In this document: piece by piece, positions 26,796 to 54,832 of the stretch
Layout: every line of letters begins with the position of its first letter
Position numbering within the stretch: the first letter of the stretch is position 1
NCBI RefSeq assembly: GCF_013280595.1
Contig: NZ_JAAATY010000009.1
Span: 124,001-188,000 of the forward strand
DNA: 64,000 bases
From: Kibdelosporangium persicum
GTDB taxonomy: Bacteria > Actinomycetota > Actinomycetes > Mycobacteriales > Pseudonocardiaceae
Reading direction: 5' to 3'
Notes under the pieces: model-generated
The model's input: only the letters and a program-made list of their open reading frames with translations
What the model was told of the DNA's origin: nothing
The model's database searches: none
Position numbers and translations under genes: made by a program

Positions 26796-27282
26796 CGGAC
26801 ACCCCCGGATCGACTGCCGGGCTTGCTGCCCGACGCTTCCACCGTCTCGCTTCGGCGGCGGGCGGGCAACGACGCCGGGGCCAGGCTGTGGACAAGTGGG
26901 GTGGGTGTGGACAAGTGGCCGGGAATCGGGCTTCGCGGACGATTCTTGTCGGATCGTTGTGGTATAGGCGCCCGATCGAAAATGTCGTTTCGGTGAGCAA
27001 CCACGATTCGAAGGTGAACATGGGAACGGGTCGCGGCGTTCGGCAAACCCGCGCCAAGATGGTTGTGCTTCGCACGTTTCGTTCAGGCGCTGAACCGACC
27101 AACGAGGTCCACAGTGGACCACGGTCGTCCGGACGAGGAGACGGCCACCCGGAAGTTCCGGGTGACTTGTTGCCCGGCAAGGGTTCGAACAGCGGACCGG
27201 TTACTACCCTGACGTAGAATTTACGTGCCCCACGCGGGACCCACCGAAGATTTTTTCCCGGTGCGCAAGGATTGCGGATATG
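26796..27282. other. Upstream region of the Tad operon
   Basis: About 490 bp without a gene. It contains two direct copies of TGTGGACAAGTGG (26887-26899 and 26906-26918), each including a DnaA-box-like nonamer, 92 bp before the ssd start. A T-run at 27251-27256 lies between here and the 6C RNA. Otherwise nothing is seen. Confidence 0.4.
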
Positions 27283-27353
27283 GGACGACCCCCGCCAGGG
27301 GGGAGGGACGGGGGTCGTCAATAGGTTCAGTCCCGGGGGGTCGGACTGAACCG
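27283..27353 (-). ncRNA. 6C RNA (B11-type small RNA)
   Basis: On the minus strand two stem-loops stand in tandem. The first is GGTTCAGTCC-GACCCCCCG-GGACTGAACC (27352-27324) and the second GACGACCCCCG-(14-nt loop with CCCCCC)-CGGGGGTCGTC (27319-27284). Two hairpins with six-cytosine loops are the defining features of 6C RNA, conserved across actinobacteria. In M. tuberculosis this RNA (B11) lies between Rv3660c and Rv3661, exactly the equivalent place here (ssd and the HAD gene). It pairs with G-rich sites in target mRNAs. Transcript ends are approximate. Confidence 0.82.
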
Positions 27354-27488
27354 GCCCGGTGTCGAAGACCGGACGCCCTAACTGTATCCCCTTCCCAGGC
27401 GCTCGTGGTCACGGATACGGGTTTTTATTGGTCGTCTTGCGCCCACCGACCATGCCGCGGCCTGCGAGAGGGGGCATATGCTGGGCTT

Positions 27489-28292
27489 ATGACCGATGTG
27501 ACGAAGCGGGTCGCAGCGTTCTTCGACCTGGACAAGACGGTCATCGCCAAGTCGAGCACGCTGGCCTTCAGCCGTCCGTTCTTCCAGGGCGGGCTGATCA
27601 ACCGCCGCGCTGTGCTCAAGAGCGCGTACGCCCAGTTCGTCTTCATGCAGTCCGGGGCGGACGCCGACCAGGTGGCTCGGATGCGAGCCCACCTCACGGC
27701 TCTGTGCGAGGGCTGGGACATCGAGCAGGTCCGGGCCATCGTCGAGGAGACGCTGCACGACATCGTCGATCCGTTGATCTACGCCGAGGCGGCCGAACTG
27801 ATCAACGACCATAAGGCGCAGGGACATGACGTTGTTGTGGTCTCCGCCTCAGGTGAGGAGATCGTGCGGCCGATCGCCCGCATGATCGGAGCCGACGACA
27901 GCGTGGGCACCCGGATGGTCGCGGATGACGGCCGCTACACCGGGGAGATCGAGTTCTACTGCTACGGCGAGAACAAGGCCGTGGCGATGAAACAGCTGGC
28001 CGCGGAACGGAACTACGACCTCGCTGCCTGCTACGCCTACAGCGACTCGGTCACCGACGTGCCCATGCTCGATGTGGTGGGGCACCCGGCGACCGTCAAC
28101 CCGGATCGGGCGTTGAAGAAGGTCGCGAGCGAGCGCGGCTGGCCGGTGCTGACGTTCTCCAAACCCGTGTCGCTGCGGTCGAGAATCCAGATGCCGTCCG
28201 GCACCGCGGTGGCCATCACCGCGGCCAGTCTTGGGGTCGCCGCGGCCGCCGGGGCCACGTGGTACGGAATCCGTCGCCGGAAGCGGAAGTAG
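27489..28292 (+). CDS. HAD-IB family phosphatase with C-terminal membrane anchor
   Basis: A 267-residue protein of the SerB-like HAD subfamily IB. Motif I is FFDLDKTVI, motif II VVVSASG, motif III ENKAVAMKQL and motif IV AYSDSVTDVPML, all with the needed aspartates, lysine and serine. The last ~30 residues form one membrane helix (AVAITAASLGVAAAAGATWYG) with a basic tail, so it is probably tail-anchored with the enzyme in the cytoplasm. Orthologs sit between the Tad/ssd genes and an RNA gene in mycobacteria (Rv3661) and Streptomyces. The substrate is a phosphomonoester of unknown identity. Confidence 0.9.
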   Translation: MTDVTKRVAAFFDLDKTVIAKSSTLAFSRPFFQGGLINRRAVLKSAYAQFVFMQSGADADQVARMRAHLTALCEGWDIEQVRAIVEETLHDIVDPLIYAEAAELINDHKAQGHDVVVVSASGEEIVRPIARMIGADDSVGTRMVADDGRYTGEIEFYCYGENKAVAMKQLAAERNYDLAACYAYSDSVTDVPMLDVVGHPATVNPDRALKKVASERGWPVLTFSKPVSLRSRIQMPSGTAVAITAASLGVAAAAGATWYGIRRRKRK

Positions 28293-28431
28293 CCACCCAT
28301 ATGGGGGGCGTCGGTAGCCCGGTCGGGGGTAGCGAGGTGCGCCGCATGCCCGCTACGTGTGCGCCGATCCGACCACGAGGCGTGTTGATCTACCGCTTAA
28401 AGACTCTGTACCGGTGCACCCGTCCGTGCCC

Positions 28432-28460
28432 TTGAAGTGACGGCGCTCACTGGGTACAAA
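28432..28460 (+). promoter_or_regulatory. Strong sigma-70-type promoter for the structured RNA
   Basis: TTGAAG (28432-28437) and TACAAA (28455-28460) are separated by exactly 17 bp, close to the vegetative consensus. The predicted start at about 28466 coincides with the 5' side of the closing stem of the RNA downstream. No coding frame is associated. Confidence 0.65.
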
Positions 28461-28465
28461 AGTAA

Positions 28466-28710
28466 GTGCGGACTCCTAGTCAGCCCGGGACCAAACGAAG
28501 AGAAGCTTGGTCCACCCTGATAGGACTCCGTGCGCGGACTCCGGGCACCCACGCGCAGCGCGCCGCGGGAGGCTTGTCGTCAAGGGACTGCGTACCGGGA
28601 CGCCGGGCGCCGAGGCCCAGTGAGTACGACGTGAGTTGCACGCTTGGTAACCCGAGAAGTCCGCGCTCGGCGGCGGCGTTCGTTGACCTGGTCAACGGAC
28701 GCCGCCGACA
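28466..28710 (+). ncRNA. Structured RNA, candidate Ms1/scr3559-type 6S-like RNA
   Basis: GTGCGGACT (28466-28474) can pair with AGTCCGCGC (28658-28666) to close a ~200-nt RNA. Inside it CGGACTCCTAGTCAG pairs with CTGATAGGACTCCG (28517-28530) and GGACCAA (28488-28494) with TTGGTCC (28507-28513). A long hairpin at 28671-28707 (CGTTGA/TCAACG continued by CGGCGGCG/CGCCGCCG) would terminate it. A good promoter lies directly upstream. In mycobacteria Ms1/MTS2823 and in S. coelicolor scr3559, RNAs linked to core RNA polymerase binding or 6S-like function, are encoded just after the HAD gene, as here. Identity rests on synteny and fold; no sequence comparison was possible. Confidence 0.65.
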
Positions 28711-28713
28711 TTC

Positions 28714-29265
28714 TCGCGCCGAGGGTGTTCGCTCGCTGCGCTCGCTTCCCTCGGCTCGAACGTCATTGCCTTTGGGGGCCGAGCCCCCAAACCCCCACGG
28801 TGCAAGCTCCTCCCGACCCAGCACTCGCTACTTTGGTCTTCGACCAGCACAATCGTCCGCTGCGGCTCGCGCCGAGGGTGTTCGCTCGCTGCGCTCGCTT
28901 CCCTCGGCTCGAACGTCATTGCCTTTGGGGGCCGAGCCCCCAAACCCCCACGGTGCGAGCTCCTCCCGACCCAGCGCTCGCTACTTTGGTCTTCGACCAG
29001 CACAATCATCCGCTGCGGCTCGCGCCGCGGGTATTCGCTCGCTTCCCTCGGCTCGAACGTCACTGCCTCTGGGGGCCGAGCCCCCAAACCCCCACGGTGC
29101 GAGCTCCTCCCGACCCAGCACTCGCTACTTTGGTCTTCGACCAGCACAATCATCCGCTGCGGCTCGCGCCGCGGTATTCGCCTCGAACGCCAACACGATG
29201 CGAACTCCTACCGACCTCGCGCTGGCTACTGTGGTGTTCGACCAGCAGAATCGTGCCGGTGTGGG
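28714..29265. repeat. 153-bp tandem repeat array
   Basis: Three near-identical units begin at about 28721, 28874 and 29027 (periods 153 and 153 bp). A fourth, shorter and diverged copy follows from 29171 (period 144). Each unit contains the self-complementary GGGGGCCGAGCCCCC and a GAGGG...CCCTC pair. Because the unit is a multiple of three, several frames stay open and encode periodic peptides (for example RSLPSARTSLPLGAEPPNP), but no frame has gene-like codon use or a ribosome site, so I treat it as non-coding. The region between the RNA terminator and nagZ otherwise holds nothing. Confidence 0.9.
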
Positions 29266-54157: not shown

Positions 54158-54832
54158 GTGGACGAGACCCTGGCCAGGGCAGGCATCTTCCAGGGGGTTG
54201 AGCCCGCGGCAGCCGAGGCGCTGAGCCAGACGCTCGAGAACGTGGAGTTCCCCCGCGGGCACGTCATCTTCGCCGAGGGAGAGCCGGGCGACCGGCTGTA
54301 CATCATCCTGTCCGGCAAGGTGAAGCTCGGCAGGAAGTCCCCGGACGGGCGGGAGAACCTGCTCGGCATCTTCGGGCCGTCGGACATGTTCGGCGAGCTC
54401 TCGATCTTCGACCCGGGACCCCGTACGTCGACCGCGACCACGGTGACCGAGGTCCGCGCGGTCACGATGGGCCGTCCGGAGCTGCGGCAGTGGATCGCCA
54501 CCCGCCCCGAGATCGCGGAGCAGCTGCTGCGCGTGGTGGCCCGGCGGTTGCGCCGGACGAACGGCATGCTCGCGGACCTGATCTTCACCGACGTGCCCGG
54601 TCGTGTCGCCAAGGCCCTGCTCCAGCTGGCCCAGCGGTTCGGCAGCCAGGAGGCGGGCCTGCTCCGGGTGACGCACGACCTGACCCAGGAGGAGATCGCC
54701 CAGTACGTCGGCGCTTCGCGGGAGACCGTGAACAAGGCGCTGGCCGACTTCGCCCACCGCGGCTGGCTGCGGCTCGAAGGCAAGAGCGTGCTGATCCTGG
54801 ACCCCGAGCGGCTGGCTCGGCGCGCACGGTAA
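54158..54832 (+). CDS. crp: CRP-family cAMP-responsive regulator
   Basis: A 224-residue regulator. The cyclic-nucleotide-binding domain shows [15 protein letters not shown] and [20 protein letters not shown] (Glu and Arg-Thr/Ser contact the phosphate and ribose). The winged helix is [31 protein letters not shown]. It matches Rv3676, which controls growth and persistence genes at TGTGA-N6-TCACA sites. GTG at 54158 follows AGGAGGGACGA. A strong terminator lies downstream. Confidence 0.95.

Follow-up and report, generated by a model that had tools for sequence, protein, structure and literature searches.

A putative CRP-type operator in the promoter of an Ms1-family small RNA of Kibdelosporangium persicum and its relatives

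Results

Gene order at the locus

The window, by which we mean the whole 64,000-nucleotide stretch of Kibdelosporangium persicum DNA that was analysed, comes from a genome of 10.35 Mb and carries, in this order, Ssd (minus strand), a 6C RNA (minus strand), a HAD-IB hydrolase gene (plus strand), an Ms1-type RNA, a tandem repeat with a 153-bp unit and a hexosaminidase-like gene. The 6C RNA lies at 27280–27355 on the minus strand (RF01066, 72.6 bits against a gathering score of 47), and the HAD-IB gene, the marker gene of Ms1, at 27489–28292 on the plus strand (TIGR01490, 230.3 bits against a cut-off of 98.3). From the RF02566 match and a 38-sequence alignment, the Ms1-type RNA is placed at 28468–28707 on the plus strand, with a length of ~240 nt and a predicted start at 28466–28468. 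The HAD-IB gene thus ends at 28292 and the RNA begins near 28468, and the initial annotation was right to put the latter directly after a HAD phosphatase gene. The gene 3' of the RNA is nearest to beta-N-acetylhexosaminidases (185.9 bits, below the cut-off of 207).

The HAD gene is flanked by two conserved RNAs, the 6C RNA and the Ms1-type RNA, and a default-threshold match to 6C between Ssd and HAD was also found in 17 of the 18 named relatives scanned. Directly 3' of the Ms1-type RNA, the tandem repeat (28713–29171) holds 3.1 copies of its 153-bp unit, which has 30 matches genome-wide including the array itself; those outside the array are partial.

Identity of the RNA

The initial annotation had proposed an Ms1/scr3559-type RNA and, as a check, a covariance-model search. 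This search matched Ms1 (RF02566) over its full length: model positions 1–304 correspond to 28468–28717 with 64.9 bits and an E-value of 1.7e-15 at a relaxed Rfam threshold. At the Rfam default threshold the match is missed, and the curated gathering score of 162 bits, which is a curation limit and not a biological property, is not reached. The source genome has this single match, and the locus was detected by DNA in all eight genomes of the genus, the source genome included. Across the family, RF02566 was matched (E ≤0.001) in 118 of 150 genomes and in 38 of 46 genera, never above 162 bits; 32 genomes gave no match in this search, whose filters miss some of the weaker ones, and none of 14 control genomes was matched. 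Among 18 named relatives the limit was reached by ten (seven mycobacterial records, Antrihabitans, Rhodococcus and Nocardia) and missed by eight (five Pseudonocardiaceae, a Rhodococcus MAG, Williamsia and Tsukamurella).

The locus of Ms1 in M. smegmatis and MTS2823 in M. tuberculosis is the same, after HAD-IB and beside 6C and Ssd. With the Ms1 model the window RNA has CCCACGCG and GCACGCUUGGUA in common, together with the succession of 5' hairpin, main stem and terminal hairpin and a sigma-A-type promoter. It differs in that the match covers 250 nt against 304 model positions, the missing part being mostly apical (10 nt in the window RNA against 63), in its score below the Rfam limit, in a terminator that has no T run, and in its downstream gene, which is hexosaminidase-like and not an oxidoreductase. 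The HAD linkage is also that of scr3559 (Str13), the Ms1 homologue of Streptomyces coelicolor, whose length is similar (228 nt between RACE ends in the part of PMC9130861 that describes it).

Judged from its sequence, 28468–28707 encodes a predicted Ms1-family small RNA, a real locus and an ordinary member of its family, and the Ms1/scr3559 assignment is borne out by the full-length model match, the HAD, 6C and Ssd neighbours, the recurrence within the family and a covarying, Ms1-like fold. The further label '6S-like' is apt for the fold and for the reported function of Ms1, but no Rfam 6S family is matched. As a kind the RNA is not new, since Ms1 in Pseudonocardiaceae is already in print: passages of PMC9130861 predict Ms1 by gene neighbourhood in 824 actinobacterial species, with 27 Pseudonocardiaceae genera, Kibdelosporangium among them, report the HAD linkage, and state that Rfam yields candidates only close to mycobacteria.

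Second Ms1-like RNAs were seen in two genomes of the family, at L010 (1501–1748) and L012 (1501–1761), with no HAD motif in these 3-kb loci and with thioesterase-like and TetR-type genes among their neighbours. At 112 bits (G125) and 95.6 bits (G009) they exceed the other copies of their own genomes (65.8 and 57.9 bits), and the Ms1-like shape into which L010 folds is more stable than the fold of any of 200 shuffles; contamination or transfer may be their source.

Fold of the RNA

The stretch 28466–28710 folds better than all of 200 shuffles (-127.8 against a mean of -107.8 kcal/mol, z -4.0), with a smaller excess when the terminal hairpin is left out (z -2.4, 4 of 200 shuffles as good). An alignment of 38 sequences, one for each genus with an RF02566 match, gave a consensus in three parts: a hairpin at the 5' end, then a main stem interrupted by internal loops, and last a terminal hairpin. 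Of its 63 pairs, 39 show two-sided changes. The 5' hairpin (28468–28531, plus strand), which holds the first GCGGACTCC, has 21 pairs with 91.2% of cells paired and two-sided changes in 14 of them. The main closing stem joins 28532–28538 to 28660–28666 (both plus strand) with pairing probabilities of 0.996–1.00 and two-sided changes in all seven pairs across the 38 genera; when seven more pairs towards the inside are counted in, of which five never vary, 96.6% of the cells are paired, and when the stem is slid pairing falls to 22–40%. For both elements the covariation score was reached by none of 500 shuffles, which take no account of relatedness among the sequences. The alignment thereby supports the fold for a family in which the Rfam limit was reached by none of 150 genomes. 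The terminal hairpin that had been annotated is present as well, as 17 bp at about 28671–28707 (plus strand) in the minimum-energy fold; with no T run after it, it would be at best a weak intrinsic terminator.

A different closing stem, of 9 bp and joining 28466–28474 to 28658–28666, had been drawn in the initial annotation. The complementarity exists, with one G–U pair, but as a conserved closing stem it failed: over 38 sequences, 80.7% of the cells of its seven alignable pairs are paired, where shuffling gives 80.0%, pairing is lost at one column pair in 16 of the 38 sequences and at a second one in 23 of 36, the other two lacking letters at that place, and the pairing probability in the window RNA (28468–28717) is 0.000. 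This stem, which pairs the first GCGGACT with the same 3' strand that the main stem uses, was rejected, as enforcing its 9 bp costs 3.5 kcal/mol and covariation also speaks against it. Both copies of GCGGACTCC (28468 and 28534) are where the annotation had seen them; the structural switch by alternative pairing that it built on them finds no comparative support, because the closing stem is not conserved and the competing stem 28532–28538 × 28660–28666 covaries in all seven pairs. The sequences suggest that the twin copies are better explained as one serving the 5' hairpin and the other the main stem. Loss of all the stems in relatives, named by the annotation as evidence that would tell against the RNA, was not what the alignment gave, since 5' hairpin and main stem covary over 38 genera.

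Core promoter

The annotated promoter with 17-bp spacing is present as TTGAAG (28432–28437, plus strand) and TACAAA (28455–28460, plus strand; TA C/G AAA in relatives), but its description as 'near-consensus' was generous, because only 8 of 12 bases fit TTGACA/TATAAT; a promoter scan asking for at least nine matching bases reported no promoter at this pair. Upstream regions for comparison were collected for 118 sequences, 117 fetched matches plus the window, out of 122 matches in the 150 family genomes, four same-genus matches (G002, G004, G005 and G006) being left out. L205 and L206 (E 1.5e-4 and 4.4e-4), which have no promoter upstream, were dropped as presumably false, and 116 loci were scored with TTG, in range in all of them, as the anchor. 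In the -10, at positions +23 to +28 from the -35, the third position holds 0.5 bits and is mostly C or G, and the five others hold 1.3–1.6 bits each; conservation is also seen at the final base of the -35.

A second conserved upstream element, GGTGCACC, lies at 28413–28420 (no strand assigned); it takes the form GGTGCAC in family loci and stands at -52 to -60 in 91 of the 116 promoters. Its centre is 27 bp upstream of that of the dyad described below. Just before the -35, GGTGCAC was found, among 80 named loci, only in Pseudonocardiaceae records and not in all of these.

A dyad within the promoter spacer

Reading of the promoter spacer revealed an inverted repeat that the initial annotation does not mention. 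In the window it is AGTGA-CGGCGC-TCACT, a putative CRP-type operator of the form AGTGA-N6-TCACT at 28436–28451 (no strand assigned), set in the 17-bp spacer with its centre about 24 bp before the predicted start. All eight core bases of a TGTGA-N6-TCACA-type site are present (28437–28450), and the outer bases are A and T instead of T and A.

Among the 116 family promoters, at least seven of the eight arm bases occur at register +5 with spacing 6 in 96 (55 perfect, 41 with 7/8). The GTGA and CAC positions hold 1.0–1.6 bits, the T of TCAC 0.4 and the inner six 0.3–0.9, so that the contrast between arms and middle is uneven in the family (0.9 bits at the first inner base against 0.4 at the T of TCAC); in Mycobacteriaceae two inner G are conserved. 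No spacing other than 6 gave a perfect site in the 116, and up to 15 reached 7/8 (gap 10); outside register +5 there was one perfect match (+13) and one of 7/8 (+2). With spacers shuffled, at most 2 of 116 reached 7/8 or better in 1000 trials, a figure uncorrected for relatedness. Counts of at least 7/8 are lowered by the misplacement of at least one locus, L015, through anchoring on the first TTG. The middles vary, with 69 distinct N6 among the 116 promoters and 32 among the 55 perfect sites. Thirty-one of 38 genera have seven or eight of eight bases in most of their loci, and seven fail this majority, one of them (g9) through misplaced anchoring.

A second set, the best 80 of 585 candidate named loci found through the HAD protein, overlaps partly with the species of the 150 family genomes; it has 38 perfect dyads and 18 with 7/8 (56 of 80), counts in which one G of the dyad had already earned a point when the promoter of a locus was picked. 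Three Nocardia loci (L077, L083 and L097) carry the full TGTGA-N6-TCACA.

By itself the motif is common: bare GTGA-N6-TCAC with at most one mismatch occurs 30 times in the window against 29 expected, so weight can be given only to register, conservation and the combined promoter pattern. That combined pattern, TTG-N2-GTGA-N6-TCAC-N4-TA(C/G)AAA, is matched in 17 of 296 genomes of the class, once in each, and read backwards in none of the 296; all 17 matches have HAD upstream and CCCACGC, of the Ms1 core, downstream. The sigma-A-like promoters of the neighbouring 6C RNA served as a control, and we take ncRv13660c to be a 6C homologue. This search of the 6C promoters was prompted by CRP binding reported upstream of ncRv13660c in passages of PMC4117774. 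None of 18 loci had the dyad within 75 nt, and a dyad common to Ms1 and 6C promoters was rejected; one 7/8 match lies further up from the 6C promoter in L084.

A dyad shared by all actinobacterial Ms1 promoters was likewise rejected, as the exact dyad is absent 3' of 16 of 17 HAD orthologues from other families, Streptomyces-like ones included. The exception, L231, belongs to the same order, in which L241 and L243 have no exact dyad. Nor have the three HAD loci taken for Streptomyces, the genus of scr3559 (L238, L240 and L242). The CCCACGC core is present in 10 of these 17 loci, and in the other seven Ms1 may therefore be absent or diverged. In the genomes covered, the predicted operator is near-exclusive to Ms1 promoters of Pseudonocardiaceae, mycobacteria, Nocardia, Rhodococcus and their kin.

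A candidate regulator

The window also encodes a CRP orthologue (54158–54832, plus strand), 26 kb from the Ms1-type RNA, which we propose as the regulator. It aligns end to end with 3h3u_A (residues 1–224, E 5.8e-120), which we take to be M. tuberculosis CRP (Rv3676), and a 10-residue stretch, presumably the CRP recognition helix, is identical. A CRP orthologue with a matching recognition helix is thus present, provided that chain and helix are correctly identified. No other protein of the genome matches PF00325; PF13545 has ten matches over the cut-off on their own score, CRP included, so other CRP/FNR proteins exist there.

The window site shares the GTGA-N6-TCAC core of operators of Rv3676-type CRP and differs from them in lying inside the core promoter of an RNA that binds RNA polymerase. 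Passages of the sources give the published Crp consensus in M. smegmatis as TGTGA-N6-TCACA (PMC7739888), associate CRP bound near the start site with repression in M. tuberculosis, and place CRP sites there upstream of three small RNAs including ncRv13660c (PMC4117774). In main-text passages of the literature on Ms1, MTS2823, scr3559 and mycobacterial CRP sites we found no link between Ms1 and CRP or cAMP: those of PMC4191392 on Ms1 do not mention CRP, those of PMC7739888, PMC12713383 and PMC13098282 do not mention Ms1, those of PMC12709188, PMC3207917 and PMC4117774 contain no Ms1–CRP link, and MTS2823 is not named among the CRP sites in the main-text passages of PMC4117774.

Loss of the dyad in one mycobacterial clade

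In the scoring of the 80 named loci, on which these counts are based and not on the separate Mycobacteriaceae spacer profile, the 38 mycobacterial loci comprise 22 perfect dyads, one of 6/8 (Mycobacteroides franklinii) and 15 with 4 or 5/8. On a tree of HAD proteins the 15 form one side of a single branch with support 100/99, the group that kept the dyad being taken to include L114 (6/8). The Mycobacteriaceae profile contains three weakly placed promoters (L083, L099 and L116), and loci entered its 'intact' set on the basis of their right arm. The named species among the 15 dyad-less loci are, as we understand, slow growers, so that the predicted operator, read on this tree, was lost once, in one mycobacterial clade of slow growers. 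M. tusciae, presumably a slow grower as well, keeps the dyad and groups outside the dyad-less clade.

The dyad-less clade (L064, L068, L072, L074 and 11 further loci) has another conserved spacer, about GTGCTAAGGGTCTAGTAG, perhaps a site for something else.

The published expression data compared here come from two species. Ms1 is up about 130-fold in stationary M. smegmatis, and its -35 and -10 hexamers are identical in M. smegmatis, M. tuberculosis, M. bovis BCG and M. avium, according to passages of PMC4191392. MTS2823 is described in parts of PMC3207917 as the most abundant non-rRNA transcript of M. tuberculosis already in exponential phase, with 6,748 RPKM against 43,600 in stationary phase. 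In this comparison of two species, the abundance during growth would fit a release from repression.

Alternatives to CRP repression of an Ms1 promoter

An Ms1-family RNA might instead have its dyad bound by another dimeric regulator, of the CRP/FNR type or unrelated, or by a CRP that does not repress. We consider this unlikely, if worth keeping in mind: several CRP/FNR-type helix-turn-helix proteins are encoded in the genome, the outer dyad bases in Pseudonocardiaceae are often A...T where the consensus has T...A, and LexA is reported at the M. tuberculosis locus in passages of PMC4191392. On the other side, GTGA-N6-TCAC is the published CRP core in the passages of PMC4117774 and PMC7739888 concerned, the Nocardia sites are full CRP consensus sites, and the CRP orthologue has no PF00325 rival in the genome.

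The arms might also bind no regulator and only tune the sigma-A promoter, through the shape of the spacer DNA or as an extended -35, an idea suggested by the left arm sharing its first base with the end of the -35 hexamer and by the other conserved spacer in the 15 mycobacterial loci. It seems to us improbable, as the arms form an inverted repeat around a freer middle, perfect sites occur only with a 6-bp gap, the adjoining 6C promoters have no such dyad, and the unlinked Ms1 copy L010 carries GTGA-N6-GCAC in another register.

That the RNA is a true 6S RNA, binding sigma-A holoenzyme rather than core, is very improbable. 6S RNA does have a long, imperfectly paired stem that is said to look like promoter DNA in its open state, and the window RNA has a comparable long stem with internal loops; yet in locus and in sequence core the window RNA agrees with Ms1, and the five Rfam matches up to E 10 include Ms1 but no 6S family. 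A 6S identity was accordingly rejected for the stretch. 6S RNA binds holoenzyme and Ms1 the core (passages of PMC4191392), and in M. smegmatis and S. coelicolor it is sigma-free core that Ms1 is reported to bind (passages of PMC4191392 and PMC9130861). Hardly credible at all is a mere structured intergenic stretch or HAD transcript end, which the ready folding of GC-rich DNA and a terminal hairpin with no T run might suggest, against the conservation, covariation and conserved promoter in many genera.

Discussion

In resting mycobacteria few RNAs are more abundant than Ms1. We infer that the window probably holds an Ms1-family RNA under a sigma-A-type promoter with a CRP-type operator, at which CRP represses during growth. 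In growing cells CRP (54158–54832) would occupy the dyad in the -35/-10 spacer and so exclude RNA polymerase from the Ms1 promoter; when growth stops, its occupancy would fall and the promoter would be released, and Ms1 would then accumulate and bind sigma-free RNA polymerase core. The rise of cAMP under hypoxia and respiratory block, described for M. smegmatis in passages of PMC7739888, would strengthen repression rather than relieve it, and the signal for derepression may be the amount or state of CRP rather than cAMP alone.

Control of Ms1 has been considered before in passages of two papers. The 2014 Ms1 paper leaves the sigma factor behind Ms1 unclear and allows for a role of other proteins at the locus (PMC4191392), and in stationary phase no gene responds more strongly to CarD depletion than Ms1 (PMC12709188). 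What is new here, as far as we are aware, is the putative CRP-type operator of the Ms1 promoter. A paper by Sikova et al. from 2019 reportedly deals with the Ms1 promoter and may bear on an Ms1–CRP link.

More tentatively, as a proposal that falls a little short of probable on the comparisons made here, Ms1 may be wired to cAMP throughout: the CRP operator in the spacer would silence it while cells grow, in Pseudonocardiaceae, mycobacteria, Nocardia, Rhodococcus and their kin, and its single loss among slow growers would leave MTS2823 abundant during growth. A single loss of the dyad in one mycobacterial clade would thus offer a possible explanation for an expression difference already in print, and because the CRP-type site is conserved and sits at an exact place in the promoter, the question of Ms1 control can be put to a direct test in a laboratory strain.
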